Assembly: GCA_944384105.1 (NCBI GenBank)
Contig: CALWSC010000090.1
Coordinates: 1-59,398 of the forward strand
Direction of reading: 5' to 3'
From: an uncultured Lachnospiraceae bacterium
GTDB taxonomy: Bacteria > Bacillota > Clostridia > Lachnospirales > Lachnospiraceae
DNA: 59,398 nt
Shown here piece after piece: positions 1 through 18,078 of the stretch. Numbering within the stretch: position 1 is the stretch's first letter; each line of letters begins with the position of its first letter. The notes under the pieces are model-generated. The model worked only from the letters and a program-made list of their open reading frames with translations. It was not told the DNA's origin and ran no database searches. Made by a program: the position numbers and the translations under genes.

Positions 1-1280
1 TTGACCAGTTTCTCAGTATTTTTGCTGGAATGGCAGATACCGTTATGGTATCGAGCTCAGGAGAAGCGGCCGGCTCGGGCGTCTCCTTAGTCGCTACGCC
101 CAATGTACTGCTGGTTGTGCTTTTTACGGCGCTGACCGCGGGCGGCTCCGTTGTTGTCTCCCAGAACCTCGGCGCAAAGCGATACCAAAATGCCGCGCGC
201 GCTTCCCAGCAACTCCTGCTCTCTGCCACGGCGCTTGCCATCGTAATGACGCTGATCGCGCTTGCGGGCAACTACTGGATCTTACACCTGGTGTTTGGAA
301 ACGTCGCCGCTGATGTAATGAGAAACGCGAGGATCTACTTCTTTATCATGGCGTTTTCCTATCCGTTTCTGGCGATCTACAATTCCTGCGCCGCTATTTT
401 CCGGGCGATGGGAAATTCCAGGGTATCCATGACCGCTTCTCTCATTATGAATGTGATGAACGTCTGCGGAAACGCACTTTTCGTCTACCGATTTCATATG
501 GGAACCGCCGGAGTGGCGATCTCCTCTCTCGCGGCGCGTATCTTTGCCGCCGCAATCCTGCTTTTGCTGCTGCGCCGCCGGAAACAGCCGATCGTTCTTC
601 GCTCCTATACTCTGCGCTTTGATCTTACAATCATCAGAAAACTTCTGCATATTGGCGTTCCCAGCAGCGTGGAGACGAGTATTTTTCAGATCGGCAAGCT
701 TCTCGTGCTCAGTGTGGTCGCAGGCTTTGGTACCAGCGCCACCACTGCAAATGCCGTTTCCAACTCCCTGGCACAGTTTCCTGTGATCCCCGCCGGCGCG
801 GTTGGTACCGCGCTGGTCACAATCGTAGGACAGTGCGTGGGTGCCGGAGCGTATGAAGCAGCATCTTATTACACCAAAAAACTGCTTCTCATCACCCACG
901 GCATACTCGCGGCGGCAAATCTTGTGATGTTCTTCGTCTGCCCGTATCTGCTGCCTCTGTACCATCTGACGCCGCAGACACTTGACACTGCTGTGCTTCT
1001 GGTACGGCTGCACAGTATCAGCGCGATTTTCCTCTATCCGGAATCCTTTATGCTGACGAATACGCTGCGCGCAGCTTCCGATGTCAAATATCCGATGGTC
1101 ATATCCATCGTATCCATGTGGATCTGGCGCGTGGGCTTTAGTTATATCCTCGGCATTTTCTTCGGACTTGGAGTGCTCGGCGTCTGGATCGCGATGATCA
1201 CAGACTGGCTGTGCAGAAGCATCTGTTTTATGGTAAGATTTCAGAAAGGCAAATGGAAAACCATGAGCATTTCTGTCTGA
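1..1280 (+). CDS. MATE family efflux transporter, 5'-truncated by window edge
   Basis: Inner-membrane multidrug/toxin extrusion (MATE) transporter that would exchange cations for drugs or metabolites. The frame is open from base 3, and the first residues (DQFLSIFAGMADTVMVS) match the conserved region after the first helix of MatE domains, so the true start lies outside the window; the ATG at 30 is internal. About 425 residues are visible, close to a full 450-residue protein, with alternating hydrophobic segments and a polar C-terminus. The second MatE half includes the GVPSSVETSIFQ segment. The GH43-like gene starts 38 bases after the stop on the same strand, so the two may be cotranscribed. 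The substrate cannot be inferred. Confidence 0.9.
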   Translation, partial: DQFLSIFAGMADTVMVSSSGEAAGSGVSLVATPNVLLVVLFTALTAGGSVVVSQNLGAKRYQNAARASQQLLLSATALAIVMTLIALAGNYWILHLVFGNVAADVMRNARIYFFIMAFSYPFLAIYNSCAAIFRAMGNSRVSMTASLIMNVMNVCGNALFVYRFHMGTAGVAISSLAARIFAAAILLLLLRRRKQPIVLRSYTLRFDLTIIRKLLHIGVPSSVETSIFQIGKLLVLSVVAGFGTSATTANAVSNSLAQFPVIPAGAVGTALVTIVGQCVGAGAYEAASYYTKKLLLITHGILAAANLVMFFVCPYLLPLYHLTPQTLDTAVLLVRLHSISAIFLYPESFMLTNTLRAASDVKYPMVISIVSMWIWRVGFSYILGIFFGLGVLGVWIAMITDWLCRSICFMVRFQKGKWKTMSISV

Positions 1281-1318
1281 CACCGCCAAACCACAAAAAG
1301 AATCTGGAGGTTTCTACT

Positions 1319-2143
1319 ATGTATATCATGTCATATTTCCTGGACAGCGACCAGACCATGCGCATCGCGGCAGGTGAAAATCTGCTGAACTTTGAGGATA
1401 TCAACGGCGGCAAACCCGTGCTCGATCTCTCCCCCATGGGAAAGATCATCCGCGATCCGTATGTTCTCTGGGACAGGACGGCGGGCCTTTACCGCCTCTT
1501 CTTCACAGACAACTGGTACAGCAATACGCTCGGATACAGCACTTCTGAGGATCTGCTTTGCTGGGGGAAACCGCAGTATCTGAAAGTCATGGGTGAAAAT
1601 GATGATGTATGCAACTGCTGGGCTCCCGAGCTGTGCTATGACAGAGAGCGCGAAGCGTGGATGCTGTTCTGGTCCACAAGCTTTTACTCCCTGAACACGG
1701 ATAAACGGATTTCCAACCGCATCTGGTACTGCCACACGAAAGATTTCCGAACGTATACTCCGGCAAAGAAGCTGTTCGATCCCGGCTATCAGGTGATCGA
1801 CGCTTCTATCCGTTACTTTGACGGATGGTACTATATGGCGTTTAAGGATGAGCGCGGCCATAACAGCGATCCGCGCTACGCCGCCATCCGTACGGCGCGC
1901 TCCCGCGATATCACGGGACCGTATGCCGATATCTCACCGCTGCTTACGCGCTTCCGCACCGAAGGTCCGCTGCTCGTCGAGGAGGACGGATGGATGTATC
2001 TGTTCTATGACTCCTTCGGCGACGCGAGCTACCGCGGGATGCGAACCAGGGATTTTATCAAATGGGAAGATGTGAGCAGCCGGATGCAGTTTCCGAAGGA
2101 CTGCAAACATCTCTGTATTCTGAAAGGGGAGCTGCCGCATTAA
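1319..2143 (+). CDS. GH43-like five-bladed beta-propeller glycoside hydrolase
   Basis: Predicted cytoplasmic glycosidase of the GH43/GH32 beta-propeller superfamily, 274 residues, with no signal peptide. Propeller motifs are visible in order: an IIRDPYV segment near the N-terminus (usual base Asp), CWAPELCYD, VIDASIRYFDGWYYMAFKDE (usual pKa-modulating Asp) and TEGPLLVEEDGWMYLFYDSF (usual acid Glu). The start is the ATG at 1319, seven bases after GGAGG; an in-frame ATG at 1211 lies inside the MATE gene and has no ribosome site. Arabinofuranosidase or xylosidase activity is typical of the family, but specificity is not visible. It faces the leftward GH operon across a shared terminator, so it probably belongs to the same glycan locus. 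Confidence 0.8.
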   Translation: MYIMSYFLDSDQTMRIAAGENLLNFEDINGGKPVLDLSPMGKIIRDPYVLWDRTAGLYRLFFTDNWYSNTLGYSTSEDLLCWGKPQYLKVMGENDDVCNCWAPELCYDREREAWMLFWSTSFYSLNTDKRISNRIWYCHTKDFRTYTPAKKLFDPGYQVIDASIRYFDGWYYMAFKDERGHNSDPRYAAIRTARSRDITGPYADISPLLTRFRTEGPLLVEEDGWMYLFYDSFGDASYRGMRTRDFIKWEDVSSRMQFPKDCKHLCILKGELPH

Positions 2144-2166
2144 AACGCGGCAGCTCCTTATTTTTT
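2128..2166 (+). terminator. Intrinsic terminator after the GH43-like gene
   Basis: Perfect 11-bp inverted repeat GGAGCTGCCGC/GCGGCAGCTCC with an 8-base loop containing the TAA stop of the GH43-like gene, followed by TTATTTTTT. The T-run makes it directional for the + strand. The convergent apiosidase-like gene ends at its right edge. Confidence 0.9.
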
Positions 2167-3487
2167 ACAGTTTTCTCCTGAGCGCCAGCACCCAGTCGGA
2201 ATGTCCCTCCAGCCGCTTTATCGGAATATATTCTGCCTGTTCTCCGCCGTTTGCGGTCCCGAAATAGCTGTACGCTCCTGTGACGGGATCCATCCAGTAA
2301 GCGTCGAAGCTGCCGGTATACTCCTTCAGATCCAGCGCGAAAGGCCTGCCGCTGTAATCGTAGCAGAAGATAAAGTCCTCTCCCGCAAAGACCGAGATTC
2401 TGTCATATTTTTCGCCCTCTTCGCCCGCCAGGAGGTGCTGGGCTGCAGAGCCGTTCTGATAGTCCACGCTCTCCATCAGATTTTTCAGATGAGCCATCTG
2501 CATGGCCCCGACATTGTGCAGCGCTTCTCTCCAATCCTGCCAGACGCCGAAAGCGCCCTTTGTCTCGCGCTCTTTGTTAAAGAACTGCATAATCGCATTG
2601 TCACCAAATGTATGTCCGAAAGCTCCGGCAAAGACGGACCAGTAAGCGTATCTTCTCGTATCCCAGGACTGCCAGTACGGCTGGCTGTTATCGTGAAGCC
2701 CCTGGACGATCTGCTCGTAGGAGGGTTCCCCGTCGATCGTCGGCTTCTGCGGCGTGCGCGCCAGATCGCGCTTTACATACCGCCAGTTGTCCTCCCCGTA
2801 ATTGTCCGGATTCTTCCCGTTGTCGTCCCAAGCGCCGAGCGTCGTCTGGTCGTATCTGCGGTGTCCGGACTGGAACATATTAAAATCCAGCCACGGCTCT
2901 TCGTGGAACCAGAGCGAGGAGGAAGTCCGTCCGAAGGGATGGAAGCCCACAAGCTGTCCGCAGCTCTCCTCCTTGAATCGCTTTCCGATATGGCGGAATA
3001 CCTCGGGCGCGGCATCTCCCTTCACATCTCCGCCCACAAGCCAGATCACATTCGCGAGCTGCCCAAACCGTTCCAGCAGAAAGTCCAGATACGGATCGGC
3101 ATTTTCGATATTTAATCTCCCGGATGAGACATTTCCTCCCCAGGTGGGCAGCAGCGCCATATATAGCCCCAACTCCTCCGCCATGGACACAATGCGCTCC
3201 GTTCTCTGCCAGTAGCCGCCCTCCAGATCCGGCGAAGCGTAATCCTCATTTTTTAAGGCGTATGCTCCGTCGATGTTTTTCTGCGGCCACTCATGGATCA
3301 GCGTCGCCTGGATGACGTTATAGCCCTTCTCTTTTCTGTTTCTCAGATACGTGTACGCTTCCTGATCCGTCAGCTTCCCGAAGATCAGCCACGCCGTGTC
3401 CCCCAGCCAGAAGAACGGGCGCTCACCGGTGCATAAGTATCTGTGATTGCCGCTGACGCGCAGCTTTCCGTAGTCCCATGGTTTCAT
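2165..3487 (-). CDS. GH140-like (DUF4038) apiosidase-like glycoside hydrolase
   Basis: Predicted TIM-barrel glycosidase of the DUF4038/apiosidase-like family (GH140 contains endo-apiosidases acting on rhamnogalacturonan-II), 440 residues, with no signal peptide. The N-terminal FFWLGDTAW signature is followed by barrel segments. Candidate catalytic acids are Asp154 in VGGD and Glu254 in DGEPSYE, by position relative to GH140. The last ~90 residues, ending in HSDWVLAL, form the small beta domain often labelled putative collagen-binding. The ATG follows an AGAGGT ribosome site. It is the last gene of the leftward GH29-GH42-GH31-URO-D-GH140 operon, 30 bases after the URO-D-like gene. Many DUF4038 proteins are uncharacterised, so apiose specificity is only suggested. 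Confidence 0.82.
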   Translation of the reverse strand: MKPWDYGKLRVSGNHRYLCTGERPFFWLGDTAWLIFGKLTDQEAYTYLRNRKEKGYNVIQATLIHEWPQKNIDGAYALKNEDYASPDLEGGYWQRTERIVSMAEELGLYMALLPTWGGNVSSGRLNIENADPYLDFLLERFGQLANVIWLVGGDVKGDAAPEVFRHIGKRFKEESCGQLVGFHPFGRTSSSLWFHEEPWLDFNMFQSGHRRYDQTTLGAWDDNGKNPDNYGEDNWRYVKRDLARTPQKPTIDGEPSYEQIVQGLHDNSQPYWQSWDTRRYAYWSVFAGAFGHTFGDNAIMQFFNKERETKGAFGVWQDWREALHNVGAMQMAHLKNLMESVDYQNGSAAQHLLAGEEGEKYDRISVFAGEDFIFCYDYSGRPFALDLKEYTGSFDAYWMDPVTGAYSYFGTANGGEQAEYIPIKRLEGHSDWVLALRRKL

Positions 3488-3517: not shown

Positions 3518-4654
3518 TCATCGTATTGTTCGTTCCATTTCATGAAGCCTGCCATACAGCGCTTCCTGCTCCTCGCCCGTCTCGCAGTACGTCACAGCGA
3601 TCAGCTTCATACCCGGCTGATACAGCGCCGCAAACGTATCCACCGCATCCGGTCCCACAGCGCGGGCGTTCAGGATGATTCCGCTGCCCGCAAAACCATC
3701 CGCAAAAGGCTTCGGATGATTGGGCGACGGATCGGTCTGGGCAGTGAATGCTCCGTCCGCTATCACGATTCCCTTCATGTTTTTGACCATCGGGATCTTC
3801 TGCTCCCAGTTGCCGCAGGAGTGGAATACCAGTCCGCCGAATTGCTCTCCGAGCCACTCGTCCGCGGGCTGGAATAATTCTCTGTAATCCTCCTCCGCGA
3901 TCATAATGCTGTTGTCATCACTCAGACCGATACCCTTTAAAATCCTGCTGCTCGCAAAGCCATGACCCGGAGATGCGAGCGCGTCGCCGATGACAGCCCG
4001 CTGCTTTTTCAGAAAATCTGCCAGCAGCCGCGCAGTCATCATTGCCGCTTCGCGGACTCCGTCCGGATCGTCATATACCTCCATAAACAGATCCGTGATC
4101 GGGAGCAGGTAGGATAGCATATTGATCGGGGACTGCACATCCGTCATCGACACGGGAACCATGCCCCTGGTCTTATCCATAAAGTATTCCGTCATTTCCA
4201 GGATCTGCCGTCCTGCGGGCGTTCTCTCAATCGGAATCGGATCCGCCGCAAGAAGCTCCTGAACGGAATGAAACAGCGGCTTTACCGCCGGAGCCTGTCC
4301 CTCGTGGAATTCATACCCTGCGCCGAAGCAGCCCGCAATATAGCCGATGCCGTACCACGGTTCCAGAAAGTTCGCGATATCCGCACGAAATTCCAGGCTT
4401 TTTTGCAGAGCACCGAGCTGCAGTGCGAGGGACTCTCTGTAATCCCTGCACTTATCGTAAAACACTCCGTCCGCGCGCACGCGGCGGTATACCAGAATGC
4501 CGCTGTCCGCCGCAAGAAATGACTCCTGGCGCTCTGCAAGCGACGCTTCATAGTCCGCGTACCGGACAAAATCAAAGCTTTCATATGATACCGGATCTAC
4601 CTTCGTACCCTGTGAATCGCGTTTGTCATACTGAAATGTATTTTCGTTTCCCAT
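3518..4654 (-). CDS. URO-D-fold protein with methyltransferase-type zinc motif
   Basis: Member of the uroporphyrinogen decarboxylase (URO-D) superfamily, 378 residues, cytoplasmic. It is unlikely to be a haem enzyme: it carries His278-Ser-Cys280 in FHSCGNW and Cys357 in VTYCETGEE, the H-x-C...C arrangement that binds zinc in corrinoid-linked methyltransferases of this fold (MtaA/MtbA/CmuA type). The preceding segment GLSDDNSIMIAEEDYRE also resembles those proteins. Its ATG lies one base beyond the TGA of the GH31 gene, so the two are translationally coupled, and GH140 follows 30 bases later. A role in removing or transferring methyl groups from O-methylated sugars is inference. URO-D-like genes of unknown function are recurrent in glycan loci, so a different carbohydrate-related activity is possible. 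Confidence 0.72.
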   Translation of the reverse strand: MGNENTFQYDKRDSQGTKVDPVSYESFDFVRYADYEASLAERQESFLAADSGILVYRRVRADGVFYDKCRDYRESLALQLGALQKSLEFRADIANFLEPWYGIGYIAGCFGAGYEFHEGQAPAVKPLFHSVQELLAADPIPIERTPAGRQILEMTEYFMDKTRGMVPVSMTDVQSPINMLSYLLPITDLFMEVYDDPDGVREAAMMTARLLADFLKKQRAVIGDALASPGHGFASSRILKGIGLSDDNSIMIAEEDYRELFQPADEWLGEQFGGLVFHSCGNWEQKIPMVKNMKGIVIADGAFTAQTDPSPNHPKPFADGFAGSGIILNARAVGPDAVDTFAALYQPGMKLIAVTYCETGEEQEALYGRLHEMERTIR

Positions 4655-4655
4655 A

Positions 4656-6971
4656 TCAGAACCTCACCTCTGCCTCTGTCCCGTCCCAGAGCATTTCCTT
4701 TTCCTGCATATTTCCGTCCGTATGGAGTACAATGCGCAGTCTTTCCGGATATCCGCACGCGGTCTTATGCGCCTTCGCGGTAAATATGCGAGATTTTTCC
4801 TCCCATTTCATTCCAATCAGGCTGTATACGCCGTTCTCATAGCTGTAATCTGTCCCGCTGTCCTCATACAGTTCAAAGCTTCCGTCCGCTCCGCCGTAAA
4901 TATGTATCTCATCCGCCGGCTGCATCGCCTCTGACGCTTTCGGAATGACGGATCCGGCGCGGATGAACACCGGCATGGTATCCACCGGAGCTTCCACAGT
5001 GATTCTTCTGCCTCCGCTGTAAAGCATTCCGCTCTCCTCCTCATACCAGCCGGCTCCCTCAGGAAGATATACGCTGACGCTGTAATCCTTCTCAAGCGGC
5101 GTGCTCTCGGGGCCGTACTCCATCGGGCGCGTCACCGGGCATACGAGGAATGATGGACCGTACATATATTCCTCCCACATCTCCCTTACCGCCGGGTCCT
5201 CCCCAAAGTCAAACATCAGGCTGCGCAGAATCGTATAATCTTCCCTGTATACCTTCCATGCAAGAGAGTAGGTATACGGCAGCATCGCGTAGCGCTTTTC
5301 TATATATTTTACGATCGTATCGTAATACACGCTTCCCTTCTCACCGAAATTCCACGGTTCTCTCGGAGTGTCGGTGCCGTGGGAGCGCATCATCGGAAGG
5401 TATGCAGCCAGCTGCAGCCAGCGGACGTAGAGTTCCCGGTATCCCAAATCTTCCACGCCCTTCTCAAAAAGTCCGTGCCAGAACCACGGCTGCGGTCCCT
5501 CGGCGTCCGGATTATTGATAAATCGTCTCCAGCACTCCAGCGTTCCCGTAAAGAAAGCGCCGGCGTCGAGCGTCCAGTATGGGATTCCCGACATGCTCAT
5601 GCTCAGCCCTTCCGCGATCTGATGCTTCAGCACATCCCACGTCGCGGCAATATCTCCCGACCAGAGGATCGTGCCGTACCGCTGAGAGCCCAGAGAACCG
5701 GATCGGGTGAGATTCGCCACGCGCTTTGTACTGCATGCCGCCCGCTGGTGCTCATAAATCCCCTGCGCGTGCTTCAGCGCAAAAATGTTGGAGACGCGCG
5801 CGTCCAGATATTTATTCGTGGAGTCCTTCGCCATCTGATACCGCTCGTCATCCTCCCGTTTTTTCGCGCCGTTCCAGTCCGGTGTGAAGGGTTCCGTCGA
5901 ATCACACCACCAGGCGTCGGTTCCCGCTGCGAACAGCTCCCGCTCACACTGCTTCCAGTACAGATCTCTCGCCTCATCGTCAAACGCGTCGTAGGTAGAG
6001 AGATTCATCAGCAGCTTGCCCGCCTGCGCCATCTCCGCGTTATTCTCCGTGCCTCTGTTCATGTTCGGCCACACGGAGATCATGAACGCGATATGGTCTC
6101 TGTGGAGCTGCTCCACCATGGCTTTTGCCTCCGGGAAGCGGCTCTTGTCAAAAATTTTATTTCCCCACTTTCCCTCCTCCCAGGAGTGCCAGTCAAGCAC
6201 CAGGCAGGAAACCGGGATCTGCCGTTTCTTAAATTCCGCGGCAGTCGTCAGGATTTCCTGCTGTGTCTTATAGCGCTCTTTGGACTGGATATAGCCGAAT
6301 GCCCACTTCGGGAGCATCACCGCTTTGCCTGTCAGAAAGCGGATGCCGGCAATCAGTTCATCGAAATTTTCTCCCGTGATCACATAGTAAGCGAGGGAGT
6401 CCACGGCGTCAAAGTCAAACGTCATCGTGTTGTCCTGCTCTTCATAGGAAAACATACACGACGCGTCGAACAGCAGCGCGTAGTTCCTCGAGGAGAGTAC
6501 CACCGGCATCGGGATTTTCATGTTGTTCTGGTAGAGGTATTCCTTTACGCCGCGGTAATTGTAGTATCCGTTTTCCTGCTGTCCGAGCCCGTAAATGGCT
6601 TCGCCGTCAGAGAGGCGGAAGGAAATCTCAGCCTCATAGGCGTCCGCAATCTTTACCGTATCCGCGTTTTCCACAAAGGAGCGCTCACCGTCAATCGTCT
6701 TTTTTGTCACAATAACCGGGGCGCTGCCTGTGAACGTATAGCGGAATACCTCCTTCGGCGTAAGCGTACAGCCGCTCTGTACGGCGAATTCCCGGTCCGC
6801 GCGTGAGAAAGTGATGGCTTTATCTTTCACTGCCGCCGTGATCCGGCACTCTGCCGCGGTCTGTGCGTCCGCCTCCGGGAGAATCTGATCTCCCGGGACA
6901 GTCTCGGTCTTCTGTTCACTGCAAACTACTTTTAAGATGTTATCCTGTATCGCTCTGAATGAAATCTCCAT
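4656..6971 (-). CDS. GH31 alpha-glycosidase, alpha-xylosidase-type
   Basis: Retaining alpha-glycosidase of family GH31, 771 residues, no signal peptide, so it likely acts on imported oligosaccharides. Domains in order are an N-terminal beta-sandwich, (beta/alpha)8 barrel from about residue 215, and C-terminal beta domains including a DUF5110-like region. Asp357 in WWCDSTEP fits the nucleophile and Asp440 in WSGDIAATW the acid/base. The W-x-D-S/A-T-E-P form is common in alpha-xylosidases and oligosaccharide-trimming GH31s rather than starch alpha-glucosidases. The AGGAGG site overlaps the stop of the GH42 gene upstream. Alpha-1,6-xylosyl side chains of xyloglucan are the favoured substrate, though alpha-glucosidase activity is not excluded. 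Confidence 0.88.
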   Translation of the reverse strand: MEISFRAIQDNILKVVCSEQKTETVPGDQILPEADAQTAAECRITAAVKDKAITFSRADREFAVQSGCTLTPKEVFRYTFTGSAPVIVTKKTIDGERSFVENADTVKIADAYEAEISFRLSDGEAIYGLGQQENGYYNYRGVKEYLYQNNMKIPMPVVLSSRNYALLFDASCMFSYEEQDNTMTFDFDAVDSLAYYVITGENFDELIAGIRFLTGKAVMLPKWAFGYIQSKERYKTQQEILTTAAEFKKRQIPVSCLVLDWHSWEEGKWGNKIFDKSRFPEAKAMVEQLHRDHIAFMISVWPNMNRGTENNAEMAQAGKLLMNLSTYDAFDDEARDLYWKQCERELFAAGTDAWWCDSTEPFTPDWNGAKKREDDERYQMAKDSTNKYLDARVSNIFALKHAQGIYEHQRAACSTKRVANLTRSGSLGSQRYGTILWSGDIAATWDVLKHQIAEGLSMSMSGIPYWTLDAGAFFTGTLECWRRFINNPDAEGPQPWFWHGLFEKGVEDLGYRELYVRWLQLAAYLPMMRSHGTDTPREPWNFGEKGSVYYDTIVKYIEKRYAMLPYTYSLAWKVYREDYTILRSLMFDFGEDPAVREMWEEYMYGPSFLVCPVTRPMEYGPESTPLEKDYSVSVYLPEGAGWYEEESGMLYSGGRRITVEAPVDTMPVFIRAGSVIPKASEAMQPADEIHIYGGADGSFELYEDSGTDYSYENGVYSLIGMKWEEKSRIFTAKAHKTACGYPERLRIVLHTDGNMQEKEMLWDGTEAEVRF

Positions 6972-6980: not shown

Positions 6981-8996
6981 CTATTTTTCCATCAGCATCG
7001 CAAAGCCCTGCGGTTTCATACGGCAGACGCCGTCCGCGTCTTCGTCCGATACGAGGTCCGTATATCTGCCGGGCAGCGTAAGCTCTATGTCCGCCTGTGT
7101 AAAGTTCGTGATATAGTAAATATTTCTTCCTTCATAAACGCGGCGGATAACCTCCACGTTTTCCGGAACTGCAAACGGAAGCTGCCATACTCCCGCCTTT
7201 TGGCAGATTTTCTCCAGAAGGCGGCGCATTGCCTCCGGCTCCAGTCCGGTGCCGATATAGTATGCCGTTCCCTTTTCGTACGCGTTCTCGCTGACAATAC
7301 CGCTGCCGGCTTTATATGTATCCGTGTACGTTCCGATCATCTTCGCCGGTCCGGCCAGAAGGTCGCACCAGGCGCTGTCTTGGCTCGTCCACTCCTCTCC
7401 GTCAAAGAAAATCTTCACCGGCGCGGTGTTGTCCGCAAAGACCGGCTCCACCTCCTGTACGGTCACGCCGAAGAGATCTGTAAGGCCTGCGGGAAGGCTC
7501 TCGGTATAGCCCACGTTGTCGCCGTTTTTCACGCCTGTAAGGAAGGTCGCAATCAGGCAGCCTCCCCCGGCGGCGTAATCTTTCAGCTTCCTGCGGTATT
7601 CCTCCCTGAGGATAAAGGCAGCCGGAAGGATCACGGCCTTATACTTTGACAGATCCGCGTCATACGGGCATACATCGGCTCCGATTCCGGAGCTTTGCAG
7701 ATAATGATAGATCTCGCCGCAGTAATGGATATAGTGATATACCGGATCGTTGACCGGTTTGATCCGCAGCGCCCAGTGCGTGTCGTAATCCATGAGGATC
7801 GCCGTGTCGTTTGCGAAGTCAGCCTCCTCATACGGCTCGAGCTTTTTCAGCAGCGCCGCCGTCTCCTGCATTTCAAAGTACCGTCTTCTCGGCACGCCGT
7901 CCATATCCACGATCGCATAGTTTAACTGCTCCGCTCCAAACGGAAAGGTGCGGTACTGAAAATGAAGCATCAGATCCGCGCCGTGGGCAAACGACTGAAA
8001 TACCGCCTGTTTTAATGCACCCGGATTCGGCTGCTGTCTGCCGGAGCCGCTGAAGCGGTGCCCGCCGCCGGACATGAATTCCATCACGCCGAAGTGCTTT
8101 CCTCCCTTTACGCCGCGCGCAAAGGCGTAGGGAAAGCTGTCGACAGAGGCATTGCGCAGCCCCGGATAGTAGTCGAACGCGTAGGTATCCAGCTCTTTCG
8201 TGCTCTTATAATAGTCGATGCTGTTCGTCGCCAGACCGGTAGCATTTGTCGTCACAAAGCCTTTGGTATATTTTTTCAGAATATCGGCCTGGATTTTCTG
8301 GTATTCAATCTGGCTGTCACTCGCAAAGCGCTCAAATTCCAGGCGCACGGTGGGATTCTCGTAGAACGCCTCAATCTGCTGCTGCGCTCCGACCTCAATG
8401 GAGTTCACCGGCAGACCGATCTGCCCGAAATGCGTGTATTCCTGCGACCAGAAGACGCCGCCGCTGCATTCGTTGAACTCCTCGATCGTATGATATTTTT
8501 TCTCAAGATACGTTCGGAATCTCGCCTCGCAGGCCGGGCAGTGGCACCGTCCCGTGCCCTCCTGCGCCGGCTCATTGTCGATCTGAAAGCCCGCTACATA
8601 CGGATTTGCGCCGTAATGCTTTCCGATCTCCTCCGCGATTCTCGCGGAGTATCTGCGGTACGTCTCATTGTTATAGCAGTAATGGCGCCTGCCGCCGAAC
8701 GGGCGTCGGATGCCGCGGTTATCCATATACAGGATGTCGGGATACTTCTCGATCATCCATGCGGGCGGGCAGGCGGTCGGGGTGCAGATAATCGTTGAGA
8801 TGCCGTGTTTCCCGAATTCCTCCACCACCGGATCCAGCCACTCAAAATGGTATTCTCCCTCCCTCGGCTCAAACCGGCACCAGGCAAACTCGCCCATGCG
8901 CACGGTATTGATTCCCGATTCTATGATGCACCTGATGTCATGTTCCAGTTCTTCCGGCTTTTTGTGCTCCGGATAATACGATACGCCGTATCTCAT
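6981..8996 (-). CDS. GH42 beta-galactosidase
   Basis: Retaining beta-galactosidase of family GH42, 671 residues, cytoplasmic. The N-terminus MRYGVSYYPEH is typical. Glu142 in QIDNEP is the expected acid/base and Glu306 in GVMEFMSGGG the expected nucleophile; the GRCHCPACE segment supplies the cysteine cluster that binds structural zinc in many GH42 enzymes. A trimerisation-type domain and a C-terminal beta domain follow the barrel. The start is preceded by GGGAGG, 26 bases after the GH29 stop. It probably removes beta-galactose exposed once fucose has been cut off by the GH29 or GH95 enzymes. Confidence 0.92.
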   Translation of the reverse strand: MRYGVSYYPEHKKPEELEHDIRCIIESGINTVRMGEFAWCRFEPREGEYHFEWLDPVVEEFGKHGISTIICTPTACPPAWMIEKYPDILYMDNRGIRRPFGGRRHYCYNNETYRRYSARIAEEIGKHYGANPYVAGFQIDNEPAQEGTGRCHCPACEARFRTYLEKKYHTIEEFNECSGGVFWSQEYTHFGQIGLPVNSIEVGAQQQIEAFYENPTVRLEFERFASDSQIEYQKIQADILKKYTKGFVTTNATGLATNSIDYYKSTKELDTYAFDYYPGLRNASVDSFPYAFARGVKGGKHFGVMEFMSGGGHRFSGSGRQQPNPGALKQAVFQSFAHGADLMLHFQYRTFPFGAEQLNYAIVDMDGVPRRRYFEMQETAALLKKLEPYEEADFANDTAILMDYDTHWALRIKPVNDPVYHYIHYCGEIYHYLQSSGIGADVCPYDADLSKYKAVILPAAFILREEYRRKLKDYAAGGGCLIATFLTGVKNGDNVGYTESLPAGLTDLFGVTVQEVEPVFADNTAPVKIFFDGEEWTSQDSAWCDLLAGPAKMIGTYTDTYKAGSGIVSENAYEKGTAYYIGTGLEPEAMRRLLEKICQKAGVWQLPFAVPENVEVIRRVYEGRNIYYITNFTQADIELTLPGRYTDLVSDEDADGVCRMKPQGFAMLMEK

Positions 8997-9022: not shown

Positions 9023-10384
9023 TTATTCTTTTCCCGTAAAGTGAATTTCCGCTCTCTCAGCGGGTTTTACGTTTTCTGTCAGTTCCATATATACGATCGT
9101 GTCCGGCTCGTCGGGTAAATTTTCAGGCAGTTCAATCCGGATTCCCTCCGCGCTCTGCGTAAAGGCGACCGACTGTCCCTTGCAGGTGCAGGTCTTTATC
9201 GTGTACGGAATGGCCGGAAGCGTCTCCTGACGGAATTTTTCCCTGTCCGTGATATGCAGATAGATATAATTCTCTCTGTATGTCGTTCCGTATACGTGAT
9301 CGACCGGCTCAATCGGGCCTCCCCTTGTCTTGTAGACCGTCTCCCCGTTTTCTCTCAGCCATGCGCCGATCTCCCGCATGCGCTGCGCCACATCCGGGCG
9401 CACATGACCGTCCCTGTCCGGACCGATGTTCAGAAGCAGGTTTCCGTCTCTTGTCACGACATCCACAAGCATACGGATCAGCCAGTCGAAATCCGATACC
9501 GGGTCATCCGCCATCCAGCCCCAGGAGCAGCCGCTGCAAACGCACATATTCTTCTCCCACGGAACCGGGATAATCTTGCCGGTGATCTCGTGAGATCCCT
9601 CGTCACAGTAGAAGTTGCCCTCCCAGCCGGAACGCGGGTTCATGATCATCTTCGGGTTGTACGCTCTCGCCATTTTGTTTAATTTTACAGGCTCCCAGAA
9701 CCAGGCGCTGGAGGTGTCGCTTCCCTTATGCGCCAGCCAGCCGCCGTCGTACCAGAGAATATCAATCTTTCCGTAATTGCTCACCAGCTCGCGCACCTGG
9801 TCGTAGCACTGCTTCTTCATCAGAAGCGCGTTTTCAGCGTTCGCCGGATCCTTCTCTCCTTTCGGGTCAAAGTATCCCGGAAAACGCCAGTCCATCGGTG
9901 AATAATAAAGTCCGACTCTCAGACCTGCCTCGCGGGCGCAGTCGGTGTATTCCTTCACAAAATCTCTGTGAGACGCCGTATCCCAGCTTGTGAAGTGCTG
10001 ATAGCTGCCCGGGCTGTTCCACAGCGCGAAGCCGTCATGGTGGCGGGTCACCATCACCATATAGTTCGCGCCGAACTCCTTTGCCAGGTCGGTCCATTCG
10101 TGCATGTCAAAATCCTTCGGATTGAACTGATCCGCCAGCGCCGTGTACTCCTCCCAAGGGATCTGCTCATTGTGGCGCACCCACTCCCCTCTTCCAAGGA
10201 TCGAGTACAGTCCCCAGTGTACGAACATGCCGATCTTGGCATCACGCCACCACTTCATATCCTCTTCCGTCAGGTTCAGCTCCTCGCAGCGCATCCCGCC
10301 GAGGCTTTTAAAATTGATGGAGCTTTTCAGCATGGAATTCAGTTCCGCTCCGGTCATCTCTCTTGGTGCTTTTTTCTGTGCCAT
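9023..10384 (-). CDS. GH29 alpha-L-fucosidase
   Basis: Retaining alpha-L-fucosidase of family GH29, 453 residues, no signal peptide. The barrel carries the family landmarks KIGMFVHWGLYS, MVTRHHDGFALW and ILWYDGGW, where Asp213 is the nucleophile; a small C-terminal beta domain follows. The ATG at 10384 is chosen because AAGGAGG lies five bases upstream; an in-frame ATG at 10402 would place that ribosome site inside the gene. It is the first gene of the five-gene leftward GH operon and is read from the conserved 50-bp promoter at 10444-10493, with an untranslated leader of about 50 bases. Confidence 0.93.
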   Translation of the reverse strand: MAQKKAPREMTGAELNSMLKSSINFKSLGGMRCEELNLTEEDMKWWRDAKIGMFVHWGLYSILGRGEWVRHNEQIPWEEYTALADQFNPKDFDMHEWTDLAKEFGANYMVMVTRHHDGFALWNSPGSYQHFTSWDTASHRDFVKEYTDCAREAGLRVGLYYSPMDWRFPGYFDPKGEKDPANAENALLMKKQCYDQVRELVSNYGKIDILWYDGGWLAHKGSDTSSAWFWEPVKLNKMARAYNPKMIMNPRSGWEGNFYCDEGSHEITGKIIPVPWEKNMCVCSGCSWGWMADDPVSDFDWLIRMLVDVVTRDGNLLLNIGPDRDGHVRPDVAQRMREIGAWLRENGETVYKTRGGPIEPVDHVYGTTYRENYIYLHITDREKFRQETLPAIPYTIKTCTCKGQSVAFTQSAEGIRIELPENLPDEPDTIVYMELTENVKPAERAEIHFTGKE

Positions 10385-10443
10385 AATATCCTCCTTCTCC
10401 ATCCGTCACTGCCGTGACAGCCCTGTTTTCGATACCTGATTTC

Positions 10444-10563: not shown

Positions 10564-12255
10564 TTATTCCCCAATTAATACGCGTTTTCCGCAAAATGCG
10601 AATCCGTACGCCCGGATTTTTTTTCCCGGCACACCTGCTGCCTCCAGCGCTTTCGCATATCCTTTTTCCTCAATCTGAAGAAGCGCCCGCTTTACAGTGT
10701 CGGAAAGCTCGGGCTCATCCTCCTTGTCCTGCACTTTAAATTCCAGTATGATCGCATCGTCCCGCGTGTTCTTCGGCTCCATCAGGACATCATACCTGCC
10801 AAATCCGCTTTCCCGATTCGAAGTAATCCGGTAACGATCTGAAAGCTCCACAATCATTTCCAGGGCAAATCCATGATAGAACCGCTCCGGTTCACTCTGG
10901 GCGGACGGTCTTTTCCCACTGTCGAAAAAGCTGAAGGTGGCAAGCGCTACACGGTTCATATAAACGTTCATTCCCTTCACGTCCCCGGATAACAGAGCCC
11001 GGATAAAATCATTGTATCCGCTGTCATAGTCCGCAAACCAGTCATGAATCATTCCCCCGAACATCACCTGCACTTCTCTGTTTGTCAGGGCCAGGCGGTA
11101 ATGCGTCCGTCCTGTCCGCTCATCAAACATCACCTGCTCCGCCTTCAGATATCCGCTGGCAAGAAGCAGGCTCCAGATCGAACTTTCCTTCACGGAGAGC
11201 TGGTCATATACAATCTGCTCATCCAGAACCGCGTCAATGCTCTGCCCCTGGATCAGCTGTTCAAAGTCCTGCTTAATCTCTTTGCTGCCCTCGCGTATGA
11301 GCTTTCCGGCAAGACTGTTGGAACTCGTGTTGGCCCAATAGGCGCGCAGTTTTCCGGTGTCAAGAAAGTTCAGGATTGACCACGGATTATATATTCCCCG
11401 GCAGCTTCCAAAAGTAAACCCGTCATACCATGTTCTGACTTCCTCCATACGCTCCTGTGTCTGATACGTCTCAAGCGCCATGCGCACTTCCTCTTCCGTA
11501 AAGCCGAAGCAGTCCGCATATTCCTCCGATGTAGTTGTCACCACTTTCAGATTATTCAGATCTGAAAATATGGATTCTCTGCTGATCCTCGTGATTCCGG
11601 TCATCAGTCCCCGCTCCAGGAAACTGTTTCCCTTAAAAGTGGCGTGAAATAAGTTTCGCATGAAAACGGACAAATCGTCCCAGTAGCCGTTGACATATGC
11701 CTCCTGCATCGGCGTATCGTATTCATCCAGCAGGATGATCGCCTTTCTGCCGTACAGCCTGCACAGCCATCCCGCAAGCTGCTGAATCGCCAGGGACGCC
11801 TCATAATCCTCCATATCCGGATTCACACGCTCAAAGTCTTCTCTTTCTCTGTCATTCAGGAATCCGTCGTCCGCCAGAAACGCGTACCTCCGGTACAGAA
11901 GCTGGAGCGTCCGCCAGATTTTCCGGCGCGCCTCCCGGTAGGACGACTCCTTGATGTTGGAAAAGCTCAGAAAGATCACAGGATACGTTCCCTGCAGGCC
12001 GCGGTATTTTTCATCCTCCCAGATGGAAAGCTGTTCAAACAGCGTGCTTCCCTTATGCTCCACTGAGAAAAACTGTTCCAGCATGCTGAGTGTCAGCGTC
12101 TTTCCAAAGCGCCGGGGGCGCGTAATCAGCGTAACCTTGTCCCCGCTATCCCACCACTCTCTGATAAAATATGTCTTATCTATGTAGAAGACATGATTCT
12201 TTTCCAATTCGTCAAACTCCTGGTATCCTATGGATATTTTTTTCTTTTCCTCCAT
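10564..12255 (-). CDS. AAA-ATPase-like / PD-(D/E)XK nuclease-like protein
   Basis: Protein of the widespread gut-bacterial family with an N-terminal AAA-ATPase-like domain and a C-terminal PD-(D/E)XK nuclease-like domain, 563 residues. The N-terminus has FYIDKTYFI followed by the P-loop-like RPRRFGKTLTLSML; a Walker B-like stretch AIILLDEYDTPM lies near residue 170. The C-terminal third has DVLMEP...AIILEFKVQ, the D...E-x-K pattern of the nuclease fold. Cellular role is unknown; members often occur in many copies per genome. The ATG at 12255 is used (GTG at 12261 is possible). It has its own promoter and is a likely passenger in the glycan locus. Confidence 0.8.
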   Translation of the reverse strand: MEEKKKISIGYQEFDELEKNHVFYIDKTYFIREWWDSGDKVTLITRPRRFGKTLTLSMLEQFFSVEHKGSTLFEQLSIWEDEKYRGLQGTYPVIFLSFSNIKESSYREARRKIWRTLQLLYRRYAFLADDGFLNDREREDFERVNPDMEDYEASLAIQQLAGWLCRLYGRKAIILLDEYDTPMQEAYVNGYWDDLSVFMRNLFHATFKGNSFLERGLMTGITRISRESIFSDLNNLKVVTTTSEEYADCFGFTEEEVRMALETYQTQERMEEVRTWYDGFTFGSCRGIYNPWSILNFLDTGKLRAYWANTSSNSLAGKLIREGSKEIKQDFEQLIQGQSIDAVLDEQIVYDQLSVKESSIWSLLLASGYLKAEQVMFDERTGRTHYRLALTNREVQVMFGGMIHDWFADYDSGYNDFIRALLSGDVKGMNVYMNRVALATFSFFDSGKRPSAQSEPERFYHGFALEMIVELSDRYRITSNRESGFGRYDVLMEPKNTRDDAIILEFKVQDKEDEPELSDTVKRALLQIEEKGYAKALEAAGVPGKKIRAYGFAFCGKRVLIGE

Positions 12256-12304
12256 GAGCACCCCGCTTTCTGTCTATAGTTTCAGTTTCCGCTGCATATA
12301 CCTC

Positions 12305-12333
12305 ATTATATCCGTCAAAGAGGGATTACACAA
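12305..12333 (-). promoter_or_regulatory. Sigma-A-type promoter for the ATPase/nuclease gene
   Basis: Leftward -35 TTGTGT (12328-12333), 17-bp spacer and perfect -10 TATAAT (12305-12310). The -35 overlaps the stop codon of the GH95 gene. This gives the ATPase/nuclease gene transcription independent of the glycan genes. Confidence 0.75.
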
Positions 12334-14572
12334 CCTGAACTTTCGTCTCCTGTCCCGCGTTCAGTGAAAGTTCGGCGCGGATTCCATTTACACGCACCTG
12401 TACGGCGCAGTCCTCCTTCGGCGTCAGCGTCAGGGCGGTTACCTTTCCGTCTTTCCAGGAAAAGTCGGCGCGGATGGCGCCGCGCAGGATCATGCCGCGG
12501 ATCTCTCCCTCGTTCCACTGTCCGGGCAGAGCAGGGAGAAATTCCAGGTATCCGGCGTGAGACTGCGCGAGACTCTCGAGCATTGCCTCCGCGATTCCGA
12601 AATTTCCGTCAATCTGAAACGGCGGGTGCGTGTCCAGCAGATTGACCTTAATGCATGCGGAAAGCAGCTTTCGGATATTCTCCTGCACCTTTGCGCCGTC
12701 CTTTAAGCGCGCCCAGAAGCAGGTGATCCACGCGCGGCTCCAGCCCGTGTGACCGCCGCCGTTTGCAAGCCGCGTCTCCAGCGTCTTTCTCGCCGCCGCG
12801 AAGAGCGCAGGCTGTTCCTCTGTGATCTCACAGCCGGGATGCAGCGCGAAGAGATGCGAGATATGGCGGTGCCCCGGCTCCGTCTCCTCATACTCCTCCT
12901 GCCATTCCATAATTCTGCCGTCCGAGGAGATGGCAATCGGCGGAAGCTTCTCGAGCATCCGGCGCACCGCTTCTGCCCCGCTCTCCTGCTCTGTAAGCTC
13001 CAGAAGCTCGCAGCCCTCGAGATATTCTGTAAAGAGCTGATGAAGGATCTCCATATCCATCGCCGGTCCCATGCACAGCGCGCCGACCTGTCCGACGGCG
13101 GAGCGGTACGTATTCTCCGGGGATACGGAAGGACCCGTCACCAGGAAGCCCTGCGGATTCTCGCACAGATAATCCTCGTAGAACCGTATCGCCTCGCGCA
13201 TGACCGGAAGCGCCACTTCTCTCAGGAACTTCCTGTCTTTCGTATACCGGAAATGTTCATATAGATGCAGACACAGCCATGCCGCCCCGGTGGACCATAC
13301 CGGAGACGCGTCGAAGATTCCCTCCGGGTCCGTATTGGCCCAGATATTCGTGTTGTGGTGTGCGCAGAAGCCCCGGCAGCCGTACAGTGCCTGCGCGGTC
13401 TTCTGTCCGCGCGGCACCATACGCCTGATCTGTTCAAAGAGCGGCAGGTGGCACTCCGGAAGGTTACACTTCTCCGCCATCCAGTAATTCATCTCCGTGT
13501 TGATATTAATGGTAAATTCACACTGCCACGCCGGAACGTACTCACCGTTCCAGATTCCCTGCAGATTCGCCGGCAGTCTGCAGTCGTATGAGCTGGAAAT
13601 CAGAAGATAGCGCGCATAGTGAAACAGCGTCTCTGCGAGCTCATTCAGATGAGTGTCGTCCCCTGCCTTTATCTCCTCAAGCAGCTCATCCGATGCCTTT
13701 TCGCTTACGCCGTGCGCTCCGAGTGAGAAATCCATACGGCTGTAAAGCGCGCCGAACTCCTCTTCATGCGCCCGGAGAATTTCCGCAAATCCCGCCTGCG
13801 CGGCGCGTTCCAGCCGCTCCAGGCACAATTCCCTGTAATTTTTCTCCGCAAAATCCGTTCCGCACGCCAGATAGATATACGCCTCCCTGGCTCCCCGGAC
13901 CCAGGAGAAATCCCCGATCGCCCCGATCTGCCCGCCGTCCGAGTCCAGCCGCACGCCGGTAAAATAGCGGATGCCGCCCGGTCCGCATTCCCCGTAATTG
14001 CACACTGTATTTTCGGAGAGCTTCCCCGTCTGCTCCTCAAACGGCTTGCGGCTCATATTGACGGAGAGCGTCAGCCCCTCTGGATTGTCCGTGGTAATCC
14101 GGATCGCGAGCACCTGATATTTATGGCTTACGATATGCTCTCTGCGGTACTGATATCCGTTCATCCGGTAGGATACCACCGCCAGCGCGCGCTCGAGTAA
14201 AAGTCTCCTGCCGTATGCTTCTGTCTTTCCTTTATGTCCGTAAAAGCAGATCCTTAAGTCTCCGGCCGGCTGATACGGATTCATATATTTCGGCGTGGAA
14301 GTAACCGCCATTTTTGCCAGGAACTGCGCCTTCTCCACCTCTCCGGCAAAGAGCAGGCGTCGGATTTCCTCCAGGTACTTCTTCGTATCCGGATTCTTTC
14401 TGTCCCGATCCTTTCCGTACCAGAGCGTTTCCTCATTGATAAAGGCAGTCTCCTCATCCACTTTTCCCATGACCATTGCTCCCAGCCTGCCATTTCCGAT
14501 CGGCAGCCCGTCATCCCAGCTCCGCGCCGGCTTTTTCAGATAAATTTCATGCCTATTCTTCAGGTGTTCCAT
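12326..14572 (-). CDS. GH95 alpha-L-fucosidase
   Basis: Inverting alpha-L-fucosidase of family GH95 (classically alpha-1,2-linked fucose on galactose), 748 residues, no signal peptide. The N-terminal PARSWDDGLPIGNGRLGAMV is the family hallmark. The (alpha/alpha)6 barrel carries FTININTEMNYWMAEKCNL (Asn pair), IMEWQEEYEETEPGHRHISH (likely acid Glu) and PFQIDGNFGIAEAML (conserved Asp). The ATG at 14572 is preferred over one at 14614 because homologues begin near MEHLKNRHEI and GAGGG lies upstream; it overlaps the end of the lipoprotein gene by 20 bases, suggesting coupling. Some GH95 enzymes act on galactose or 2-O-methyl-fucose, so the exact sugar is open. Confidence 0.93.
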   Translation of the reverse strand: MEHLKNRHEIYLKKPARSWDDGLPIGNGRLGAMVMGKVDEETAFINEETLWYGKDRDRKNPDTKKYLEEIRRLLFAGEVEKAQFLAKMAVTSTPKYMNPYQPAGDLRICFYGHKGKTEAYGRRLLLERALAVVSYRMNGYQYRREHIVSHKYQVLAIRITTDNPEGLTLSVNMSRKPFEEQTGKLSENTVCNYGECGPGGIRYFTGVRLDSDGGQIGAIGDFSWVRGAREAYIYLACGTDFAEKNYRELCLERLERAAQAGFAEILRAHEEEFGALYSRMDFSLGAHGVSEKASDELLEEIKAGDDTHLNELAETLFHYARYLLISSSYDCRLPANLQGIWNGEYVPAWQCEFTININTEMNYWMAEKCNLPECHLPLFEQIRRMVPRGQKTAQALYGCRGFCAHHNTNIWANTDPEGIFDASPVWSTGAAWLCLHLYEHFRYTKDRKFLREVALPVMREAIRFYEDYLCENPQGFLVTGPSVSPENTYRSAVGQVGALCMGPAMDMEILHQLFTEYLEGCELLELTEQESGAEAVRRMLEKLPPIAISSDGRIMEWQEEYEETEPGHRHISHLFALHPGCEITEEQPALFAAARKTLETRLANGGGHTGWSRAWITCFWARLKDGAKVQENIRKLLSACIKVNLLDTHPPFQIDGNFGIAEAMLESLAQSHAGYLEFLPALPGQWNEGEIRGMILRGAIRADFSWKDGKVTALTLTPKEDCAVQVRVNGIRAELSLNAGQETKVQVV

Positions 14573-16118
14573 AAGTCTTTTCCCTCTCCACAGCCGTCTT
14601 CCACGACCGTTCATAGTAACTTTTCAGCTCTTTGATTCCCATAGTCTCACATTTCTGTATCATCTTCTGCCAGAGACTCTCAAACGCTTCCTGCGATTCC
14701 GCATAGATCATATCCCAGGACAGCTCCGTGATCAGTTCCTGAAGCGCCTCGCCCTTCTTCTGCATCGCATCGGGAAGCGCGTCCGCCATATAGACAGCGG
14801 CGCTTTCCTCCTGAATCTGCCCGTTTCTCTCAAGCTCTTCTGACAGGCTCATGCCGCGCCAGACCAGGATTTCCTCCTCGAGAGCAGATGGCTGCTTCTG
14901 ACTCTGTCCGCTCAGAGCCACATCATCGTCTCCCATGGCCGCCCGCGTCAGCGCCGGCTGCGAAAACACGCGCTCTGACTCCTCACTGTAGAGCAGGCGG
15001 ATATTCTCCGGATCATACAGCCAGTTCAGGAGCCGGCACACTGTCTCGGGATCTTTGCTGTTTTTGTTAATTCCAAAATACCATCCGCTTCCCACTGGGT
15101 TATCCGGCTCCCTGCAGATCTTCATATCTGACGCAGGCACCGCGGCGTAGCTGTCAGCCGCTCTCTCGTCAGCTCCGCCATAGCCTCTGGTCAGCTTTGG
15201 AAAGTTTGCAAAAAGGATCTGCCCGTTCTCATACTTGCGCTTCAGATTCTCGGCAGTCTGCGTTCTCGAGTCCGGATCCAGAAGCCCGCGCTGGTTTGCC
15301 TCGAAATAAAATAAGAGCGCTCTGTGGTAAAAGCTGTTTTCCTCTGTGACCGCTTTGATATGGCCATCGGAAACGGACAGCTCCATAAGCGGGGAAAGTT
15401 GTCCCGTGTCGATTCCATAGAAATACGACAGAGAAGACGGCTGCTGATTATTTCCCGCCCAGTCTCCGCACAGGGAAAACCCGTATACTCGCTCTCCCAG
15501 CGGTGTTGTGGGCTTTTGCTTCTGCATCAGCTCTGCAGCGTTCAAATAGTCCTCAAGTGTGCCGATCTGCGGCATACCTGCCTTTTTATAGGCATTCCAC
15601 TGCAGCATCGGCATCCATGTGTACTCATCCTCAGACCGTTCCCCTATGGAAGTTGCCATAAAGTACAGATGCTTTTCCTCTTTTCCCCATATCTCCCGGT
15701 AATACTGAACTGCAGCCTCATAGCAGCTGTTATGAAAAATTTCCGGAAGCTGTCCGCTGTATTCATCCAGCGGCAGCAGCACATCTGCCCCTATTAAAAG
15801 CTCTGCCTGCTCCAGATTCTGAAACCCCACGAGATCCGGCAGTGTCCCCGCCGCCAGATACTGCTTCAGATTCTTTTCATCTCCGCTTCCATTTGAATAA
15901 AACTCTACGTGAATCCCGGTATCTTCATACAGCTTATCCGCCCCTGCGCCTTCCCAGCTTCCTGCAGCGTTACTTCCCTCCTGCCTGATCAGAACAGTCA
16001 CCGTGCAGTCTTCCGACACCGTTTTCTGCTCACCTGTTCCGCCCCGTGTCCCGCATCCTGCAGCGGCAAGGCTCAAAACGGCGCATACTGCCGCCGCCTT
16101 TCTGACGCTTCCTCTCAT
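14553..16118 (-). CDS. Extracellular sugar-binding lipoprotein (second, without permeases)
   Basis: ABC-transporter solute-binding lipoprotein of the family-1 type, 521 residues. The N-terminus MRGSVRKAAAVCAVL leads into the lipobox LAAAGC, so the mature protein starts with a diacylated Cys anchored outside the membrane. Large-lobe motifs such as LAAGTLPDLVGFQ and GWYFGINKNSKDPETV are typical of periplasmic-binding folds. The ATG at 16118 lies six bases after GGAGGAG; upstream in-frame starts lack a signal peptide. It is divergent from YesM and overlaps GH95. No permeases accompany it, so it either shares the Lpl-type permeases at 22902-24783 or presents ligand to YesM; both ideas are inference. 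Confidence 0.85.
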   Translation of the reverse strand: MRGSVRKAAAVCAVLSLAAAGCGTRGGTGEQKTVSEDCTVTVLIRQEGSNAAGSWEGAGADKLYEDTGIHVEFYSNGSGDEKNLKQYLAAGTLPDLVGFQNLEQAELLIGADVLLPLDEYSGQLPEIFHNSCYEAAVQYYREIWGKEEKHLYFMATSIGERSEDEYTWMPMLQWNAYKKAGMPQIGTLEDYLNAAELMQKQKPTTPLGERVYGFSLCGDWAGNNQQPSSLSYFYGIDTGQLSPLMELSVSDGHIKAVTEENSFYHRALLFYFEANQRGLLDPDSRTQTAENLKRKYENGQILFANFPKLTRGYGGADERAADSYAAVPASDMKICREPDNPVGSGWYFGINKNSKDPETVCRLLNWLYDPENIRLLYSEESERVFSQPALTRAAMGDDDVALSGQSQKQPSALEEEILVWRGMSLSEELERNGQIQEESAAVYMADALPDAMQKKGEALQELITELSWDMIYAESQEAFESLWQKMIQKCETMGIKELKSYYERSWKTAVEREKTYGTPEE

Positions 16119-16170
16119 TCTCATCTCCTCCAACTTCCAACAAATCTTATAATCCTTCGCAGCACTCAGA

Positions 16171-16199
16171 TTGTAATTGCACTCCCTGACTGTTATAAT
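16171..16199 (+). promoter_or_regulatory. Sigma-A-type promoter for yesM-like kinase
   Basis: -35 TTGTAA (16171-16176), 17-bp spacer, perfect -10 TATAAT (16194-16199), 40 bases upstream of the kinase ATG. The same 120-bp gap must hold the leftward promoter of the lipoprotein gene, for which only a weak TATAAG-type -10 can be seen. Confidence 0.75.
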
Positions 16200-16238
16200 A
16201 AACAAAACTATCATACCTCATCAAAGGAGCATCTGTCT

Positions 16239-18047: not shown

Positions 18048-18071
18048 CGCCCGGGAAATCTGTCCCGGGCG
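18048..18071. terminator. Bidirectional hairpin between kinase and GH2 genes
   Basis: Perfect 9-bp inverted repeat CGCCCGGGA/TCCCGGGCG with a 6-base loop in the 31-bp gap between convergent genes. There is no T-run on either side, so it may protect mRNA ends or act as a weak terminator. Confidence 0.55.
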
Positions 18072-18078
18072 CATCTCT

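Follow-up and report, generated by a model that had tools for sequence, protein, structure and literature searches.

In the window, the 59,398-nt stretch of contig CALWSC010000090.1 (assembly GCA_944384105.1) from an uncultured Lachnospiraceae bacterium, the gene at 3518..4654 on the minus strand encoded a uroporphyrinogen decarboxylase (URO-D)-fold protein of 378 amino acids (aa), here designated A, a putative zinc/corrinoid O-demethylase component possessing His278, Cys280 and Cys357. Together with a second URO-D-fold protein (B) and a stand-alone corrinoid protein (C), A is tentatively read as part of an anaerobic corrinoid-dependent O-demethylase of a sugar in side chain A of rhamnogalacturonan II (RG-II), most likely O-methyl-galacturonate, the chances of this whole reading being judged slightly short of even. 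The parts of the proposal differ in strength: A probably belongs to the class of zinc URO-D corrinoid methyltransferases, and an RG-II methyl sugar is somewhat favoured as the substrate of A and B, whereas O-methyl-galacturonate as the specific substrate is a more doubtful assignment. Partner B, the corrinoid and activase genes, and the galacturonate link are additions beyond an earlier note made from the sequence alone, which had described A as a URO-D-fold protein with a methyltransferase-type zinc triad within a glycosidase operon.

The A-B gene pair and its conserved triad

The open reading frame (ORF) of A proved to be a real gene. Between the window and the copy in locus L018, differences numbered 14, 14 and 86 at codon positions 1, 2 and 3, respectively, indicating that the frame is under protein-level selection. 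His278 and Cys280 were located within VFHSCGNW and Cys357 was also present, as first described. The ATG of A was separated by one base from the stop codon of a glycoside hydrolase family 31 (GH31) gene at 4656-6971 on the minus strand, the nearest solved relatives of which were alpha-xylosidases, and the gene after A, at 2165-3487 on the same strand, encoded a GH140-like apiosidase (Apiosidase PF13204, 339 bits) with 3kzs and 5msy as nearest solved relatives; both neighbours agreed with the earlier note.

Orthologues of A (at least 60% identity) were found in nine of 250 Lachnospiraceae genomes, the sample to which all genome counts refer, with the window genome counted; the remaining genomes gave no further match at E<=1e-20. 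A total of 24 distinct A loci was available, comprising 20 from a genome-contig scan, those of G161, G098 and G179, and that of the window. Across 23 orthologues, a count that leaves out the truncated L035 and duplicate copies, His278 and Cys280 were kept in 23/23 and Cys357 in 22/23, L015 with Val being the sole exception. In an alignment of 30 rows (18 A, 9 B and 3 other URO-D proteins; A rows L015, L016, L017, L021 and L034 omitted), the only invariant columns were G111, H278, C280, G281 and C357. Absence of the triad from close homologues, which the earlier note had named as evidence that would speak against its proposal, was thus not observed.

At L021:1498-3594, an exonuclease-like gene and A were joined in frame as a 698-aa ORF, the exonuclease-like part first; this was read as a local readthrough or fusion and dropped as functional evidence, and exonuclease-like genes, read from translations, also lay near A in L023, L026 and G098. 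Viral contigs gave 0 matches to six peptide patterns, with which close relatives only were detectable, and a plasmid search gave a single match of 22.6%.

Directly after A at 17 of the 24 loci was the gene for B, a second triad-bearing URO-D-fold protein with its own His-His-Cys and late Cys, and 12 of the 14 A-B junctions examined overlapped as ATGA. B was present in eight genomes, all of which possessed A, so that G158 was the only A genome without B (Fisher 2.7e-14, or 7e-13 when the genus of the window is counted with a single genome). B is therefore a near-obligate partner of A, a relationship that is new here. In the window genome, B was located on contig C95, apart from A; since the two genes occurred in one locus in the sister species G093, with 11 kb between them, the separation probably reflects a contig break. 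Downstream of A-B in G179 (L090:1-12000), two more URO-D proteins were encoded, and beyond them were genes reading like those of glycine cleavage, and another corrinoid-protein gene.

RG-II neighbourhood and the candidate sugar

Beside B in the window genome, a protein of 916 aa with no Pfam match was encoded, its only strong relative in the Protein Data Bank (PDB) being BPa0997 (636 bits); the residue mutated in that solved entry, E361, was kept as Glu. This relative is taken here to be a GH138 enzyme with specificity for RG-II side chain A, and the GH138-like and GH140-like family names and RG-II roles used in this text are presumed in the same way from BPa0997 and 3kzs/5msy. GH138 was observed in eight genomes, namely 7/9 A genomes versus 1/241 others (G181), with a Fisher value of 2.6e-11, or 6e-10 when only one genome of the window's genus is included. 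The GH138-like gene shared the locus of A in G093 and G179, and in G179 the GH29, GH42, GH31, GH95, GH2 and transporter genes of the window recurred at a single locus that also contains GH138, A and B. Such an arrangement, with a GH140-like gene adjoining A in the window and a GH138-like gene in its locus in two other genomes, is that of an RG-II degradation locus.

Directly upstream of the GH138-like gene in L068 (9451-10584, minus strand) and L066 (360-1493, plus strand) was a gene for a 377-aa protein, P0004, with no Pfam or NCBIfam match, which reads like a URO-D-fold protein with His-Leu-Asp-Gly in place of the His-Ser-Cys-Gly of A.

A second association was with genes of hexuronate catabolism. 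UxaA, UxaB and/or UxaC, assigned by Pfam on the L025 representatives and by BLAST in the remaining loci, were located within 10 kb of A-B in L025, L030, L031, L033 and L037, with UxaE also nearby in L033 and TRAP-type genes, named from reading, beside A-B in L025. Locus L031, from Murimonas intestini DSM 26524 in a record flagged UNVERIFIED_CONTAM, contains UxaC and UxaB together with A and B. At 4 of the 24 loci, UxaC was no more than 10 kb from A, against 0.12 expected (P ~7e-6, flank lengths being hand-entered). Furthermore, in G098, G157, G181 and G220, GH138 came directly after UxaB-UxaA, with all three genes on one strand. RG-II is stated to contain three methyl-etherified sugars, MeFuc, MeXyl and MeGalA, and data for side chain A of wine RG-II are given as compatible with a mono-O-methylated galacturonic acid (GalA) (PMC8218411, an RG-II methods paper). 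O-methyl-galacturonate is the best-fitting substrate because it explains the RG-II and the Uxa associations both.

Several observations do not sit well with this reading. No Uxa gene was found in the examined flanks of 19 of the 24 loci, several of these flanks being short, and in the window's genus UxaC was on a different contig from A. G181 possessed C, GH138 and the Uxa genes and neither A nor B, while G013 possessed A, B and the Uxa genes and neither a clade-C protein (best 54%; clade C is defined below) nor GH138; GH138 was also absent from G158, in which A occurred without B. The G179 locus showed no GH140. In addition, the Fisher tests for A with B, C and GH138 were made without phylogenetic correction. 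The locus of G181 (L110:9609-18102), with the order UxaC-LacI-UxaB-UxaA-GH138, offers a natural control for the contribution of A-B.

The alternative that survives best keeps the enzyme class and replaces the substrate with 2-O-methyl-xylose or 2-O-Me-Xyl-alpha-1,3-Fuc, which would be demethylated for the adjoining GH31 or for xylose use. It is a serious rival because the GH31 directly before A in the window's genus is of the alpha-xylosidase type and because Bacteroides thetaiotaomicron breaks RG-II at 21 of its 22 linkages, with the disaccharide 2-O-Me-Xyl-alpha-1,3-Fuc left uncut (PMC7939467). This GH31 and the GH42 gene adjoining it (6981-8996, minus strand, by Pfam) also stay near A-B in L037 and G179. 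However, L025, L030, L031 and L033 contained Uxa genes and no GH31 in the flanks examined, the search for GH31 being confined to these flanks, and Uxa genes near A-B in such loci are unexplained by xylose; this alternative is thus considered unlikely, although by no means negligible.

Less probable again is that the same class of enzyme acts on uronic acid methyl esters or on pectin-derived methanol. RG-II also holds methyl-esterified GlcA and GalA, as stated in PMC8218411, and pectin and hexuronate genes are among the neighbours of A-B. MtaB was encoded in only 2/9 A genomes, that of the window not among them, so the known methanol enzyme would leave this need uncovered. However, both MtaB genes (on C77 of G220 and C37 of G098) adjoined that of a different corrinoid protein, 59% identical to C, and esters are normally removed by esterases.

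As a further candidate, 4-O-methyl-glucuronate of glucuronoxylan was rejected as the main substrate, since neither GH67 (1/9 A genomes versus 18/241 others) nor GH115 (3/9 versus 41/241) was associated with A (p 0.5 and 0.2, respectively).

Enzyme class, corrinoid protein C and the fate of the methyl group

Membership of A in the URO-D superfamily was supported by Pfam (PF01208, 33.9 bits versus a gathering cut-off of 23.9), the match spanning residues 55-220 only, with the motif region outside it; B scored 51.6 bits against the same cut-off. The AlphaFold model of A was confident (predicted local distance difference test, pLDDT, 91.2; predicted template modelling score, pTM, 0.90). In a Foldseek search with it, ranks 1-2 were MtaA (E 6e-11 and 9e-11; template modelling score, TM-score, 0.57-0.61), followed by haem URO-Ds (E from 1e-9; TM-score 0.51-0.58), with zinc-bound MetE at rank 16; the top match of the B model (pLDDT 87) was likewise MtaA. 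In the model of A, strand 275-278 has H278 as its last residue and C357 comes after strand 350-355, positions expected for loops at the barrel mouth. At the sequence level, a mixed profile of A, B and three other URO-D proteins had one PDB match at E<=0.1, MtaA 4ay7 (E 1.5e-6), with His-x-Cys in register. By hhalign, the A-only profile could be aligned to an MtaA-like protein encoded close to the corrinoid locus in G158 (E 3e-7), and His278 and Cys280 were in register; this alignment stops before Cys357, which is in register with the mixed profile only.

Weighing against the assignment, the TM-scores are moderate and the fold hardly separates MtaA from haem URO-D; it is the triad, unlike the fold, that separates the relation of A to MtaA from that to haem URO-D. 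Neither protein reached the MtaA/CmuA curated cut-offs: for NF004889, a model of methylcobalamin:coenzyme M methyltransferase, A scored weakly at 18.3 bits versus 244 and B at 45.7 versus 244, and for TIGR01463 A was not listed and B scored 32.6 versus 235.4. The match to MtaA 4ay7 leans on B and on two near-identical rows, one of which scored as MtaA/CmuA-like. With the A-only profile of 18 rows no PDB sequence was matched even at E<=10, and A or B as single sequences gave no PDB match at E<=1. At the sequence level A is consequently tied to MtaA through the mixed profile and hhalign, and confidence in the enzyme class was lowered slightly on account of the A-only profile. The earlier proposal of a zinc-type methyltransferase in an RG-II context therefore held in part: the top fold match, the mixed-profile match to MtaA and the linkage to GH138 favour it, whereas MtaA led the haem URO-Ds only narrowly and A alone has no solved relative by profile.

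C was encoded at 34472-35257 on the minus strand as a stand-alone corrinoid protein (B12-binding_2 and B12-binding by Pfam) and was the only PF02607 match found in the window genome, which is 78% complete. A gene at 32158-34563 on the same strand encoded a corrinoid-protein reductive activase of the RACo/RamA/AcsV type, with scores below the NCBIfam curated cut-offs, and a PocR-domain AraC-type regulator was encoded divergently from the corrinoid operon at 35310-36560 on the plus strand. The window genome thus possesses both the corrinoid protein and the activase of a corrinoid O-demethylase system. The activase has an N-terminal extension containing a Cys-x-x-Cys-type stretch with no Pfam name; long forms of 730-768 aa were observed in G093, G237, G110, G179, G157, G148, G214 and G223, and shorter ones of 501-552 aa in G158, G181, G021, G098 and G038.

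Clade C, defined at 75% identity or more (next matches at most 65%), was present in 23 genomes, namely 8/9 A genomes versus 15/241 others (Fisher 1.2e-8, or 1e-7 when a single genome stands for the window's genus). This co-occurrence, together with the corrinoid and activase genes present in the window itself, supports the corrinoid acceptor suggested in the earlier note. In 16 clade-C neighbourhoods, an activase was found in 13, a PocR regulator in 13 and a further URO-D protein in 10; three of the last were scored and were MtaA/CmuA-like, below cut-off. C accordingly goes with URO-D transferases and is read as a hub serving several of them, and the URO-D genes near 10 of the 16 speak for the enzyme class, in the direction opposite to the A-only control. 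The window genome contained 12 URO-D matches, namely A, one on C37 and 10 that were read; of these 10, eight had His-x-Cys and two did not, giving nine with A.

Against C as the partner of A, an MT-I (methyltransferase I) adjoining its corrinoid protein was not seen: A and C were 30 kb apart in the window and on different contigs in G093, G098, G157, G158, G161, G179 and G220, and outside the window no clade-C gene was present in the examined flanks of A. A cobalamin riboswitch was not detected at the gathering threshold in the window, L066, L068, L025 or L037.

Candidates for the second transferase (MT-II) in the window genome were a pterin-binding protein on C102 (open frame of 272 aa) and an MtaA-like protein at C96:47280-48296, 57% identical to the MtaA-like protein near C in G158; MtaA-like proteins near C were also found in G181, G223, G067 and G220. 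It is quite improbable, on about the same footing as action on esters or methanol, that A and/or B are themselves acceptor-side MtaA-type transferases, transferring methyl from the methylcorrinoid onto a thiol or some different acceptor. MtaA, the closest solved fold of both, is an acceptor-side enzyme, and G098, G158 and G220 had one pterin-binding match each (267-284 bits), taken by length and score as dihydropteroate synthase, so no pterin-type second transferase or MetH is recognised there. However, the protein on C96 and those near C in the four other genomes are separate and much closer to MtaA, and the neighbours of A-B are sugar genes, not C. That A is no methyltransferase, being a haem-pathway decarboxylase or having another URO-D-fold activity, is very improbable: the nearly equal fold scores of haem URO-Ds, the Pfam name URO-D, the A-only profile without a solved sequence relative and the neighbouring P0004, possibly a URO-D-like protein lacking the motif, would favour it, but the haem-pathway URO-D model HemE (TIGR01464) matched neither A (E<=0.1) nor B (E<=0.01), the triad is nearly invariant, and A co-occurs strongly with a corrinoid protein.

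Acetyl-CoA synthase (PF03598) was encoded in 4/9 A genomes, the window's among them, and the methyl acceptor may differ between genomes. Genes of an Rnf complex at 39801-44850 of the window would suit an acetogenic energy metabolism. Near a corrinoid operon, L069:2073-3518 encoded an MtaA/CmuA-like protein of 481 aa that carries a thioredoxin-like stretch at its C-terminus; shorter relatives (453-454 aa) lay near C in G110, G214 and G038.

Proposed mechanism, related systems and other genes of the locus

In the demethylase proposed here, A and B would be two URO-D-fold components, each with a His-x-Cys...Cys zinc site, and A, B or the pair would bind an O-methylated sugar freed from RG-II side chain A. 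Zinc would polarise the ether oxygen of the bound sugar and Co(I) of C would accept the methyl group, leaving galacturonate to enter the UxaC/UxaB/UxaA pathway. The activase would rescue oxidised cobalt, and a second transferase, for which the C96 MtaA-like protein, the C102 pterin-binding protein and B are candidates, would hand the methyl group on. The pair may tentatively be put forward as the first oxygen-independent, B12-dependent sugar O-demethylase, a two-component zinc enzyme converting RG-II sugars (O-methyl-galacturonate, perhaps 2-O-methyl-xylose) to ordinary sugars and delivering methyl groups to one-carbon (C1) metabolism through a shared corrinoid protein.

A shares with MtaA/MtbA/CmuA (TIGR01463, NF004889; 4ay7) the URO-D fold, with MtaA as its top solved match, and a His-x-Cys...Cys pattern in register with an MtaA-like protein; it differs in falling far below the curated cut-offs, in an A-only profile without solved relative, in forming a two-gene unit with B and in its sugar-catabolic context in bacteria. 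To our knowledge, A-B is not expected to use coenzyme M, unlike MtaA. By the same cut-offs A is outside MtaA/CmuA and, as proposed, works like the MT-I of O-demethylases. Compared by description, MtvB, OdmB, VdmB and MtoB (methoxyaromatic O-demethylases) and CdmB (chloromethane) are URO-D-superfamily MT-I enzymes operating with a corrinoid protein, as A-B would; their systems consist of MT-I, corrinoid protein, MT-II and activating enzyme, and some contain zinc (PMC13222342, PMC12915777). Their substrates are methoxyaromatics or chloromethane, whereas A-B sits with pectin and hexuronate genes, its putative corrinoid gene unlinked. O-Demethylation of a sugar from a polysaccharide has a counterpart in the cytochrome P450 that acts oxidatively on 6-O-methyl-galactose of porphyran (PMC10033563); that enzyme is a monooxygenase yielding formaldehyde, whereas A-B would be anaerobic and the methyl group kept. 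The GH138-like and GH140-like enzymes resemble RG-II degradation in B. thetaiotaomicron, to which the Lachnospiraceae locus adds a putative demethylase.

Among the open-access matches listed, none described, by title and start of abstract, a sugar demethylase of the corrinoid type or an anaerobic methyl-sugar demethylase, subscription journals lying outside this search. Of the polysaccharides characterised, RG-II is described as having the most elaborate structure (PMC8218411), and, if the proposal is true, corrinoid C1 chemistry would extend to plant glycans in the gut; a named protein pair and a named corrinoid partner make this directly testable.

The other genes around A were predicted to encode mainly glycosidases and transporter components. 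A GH43-like protein was encoded at 1211-2143 (plus strand), and beyond GH42 lay an alpha-L-fucosidase family (GH29) gene at 9023-10402, a GH95 gene at 12326-14614 and a GH2 gene at 18079-21099 (all minus strand), these being assigned by Pfam, as was an AAA-ATPase_like/PDDEXK_9 gene lying midway through the glycosidase operon (10564-12261). Binding proteins at 14553-16214 and 21173-22870 and two ABC permeases at 22902-24783 (all minus strand), a sensor kinase at 15909-18047 and a response regulator at 24997-26607 (both plus strand) were named from their translations. The block 14553-24783 has relatives in L037 and G179, and the response regulator has an orthologue of 56% identity in the G179 locus.
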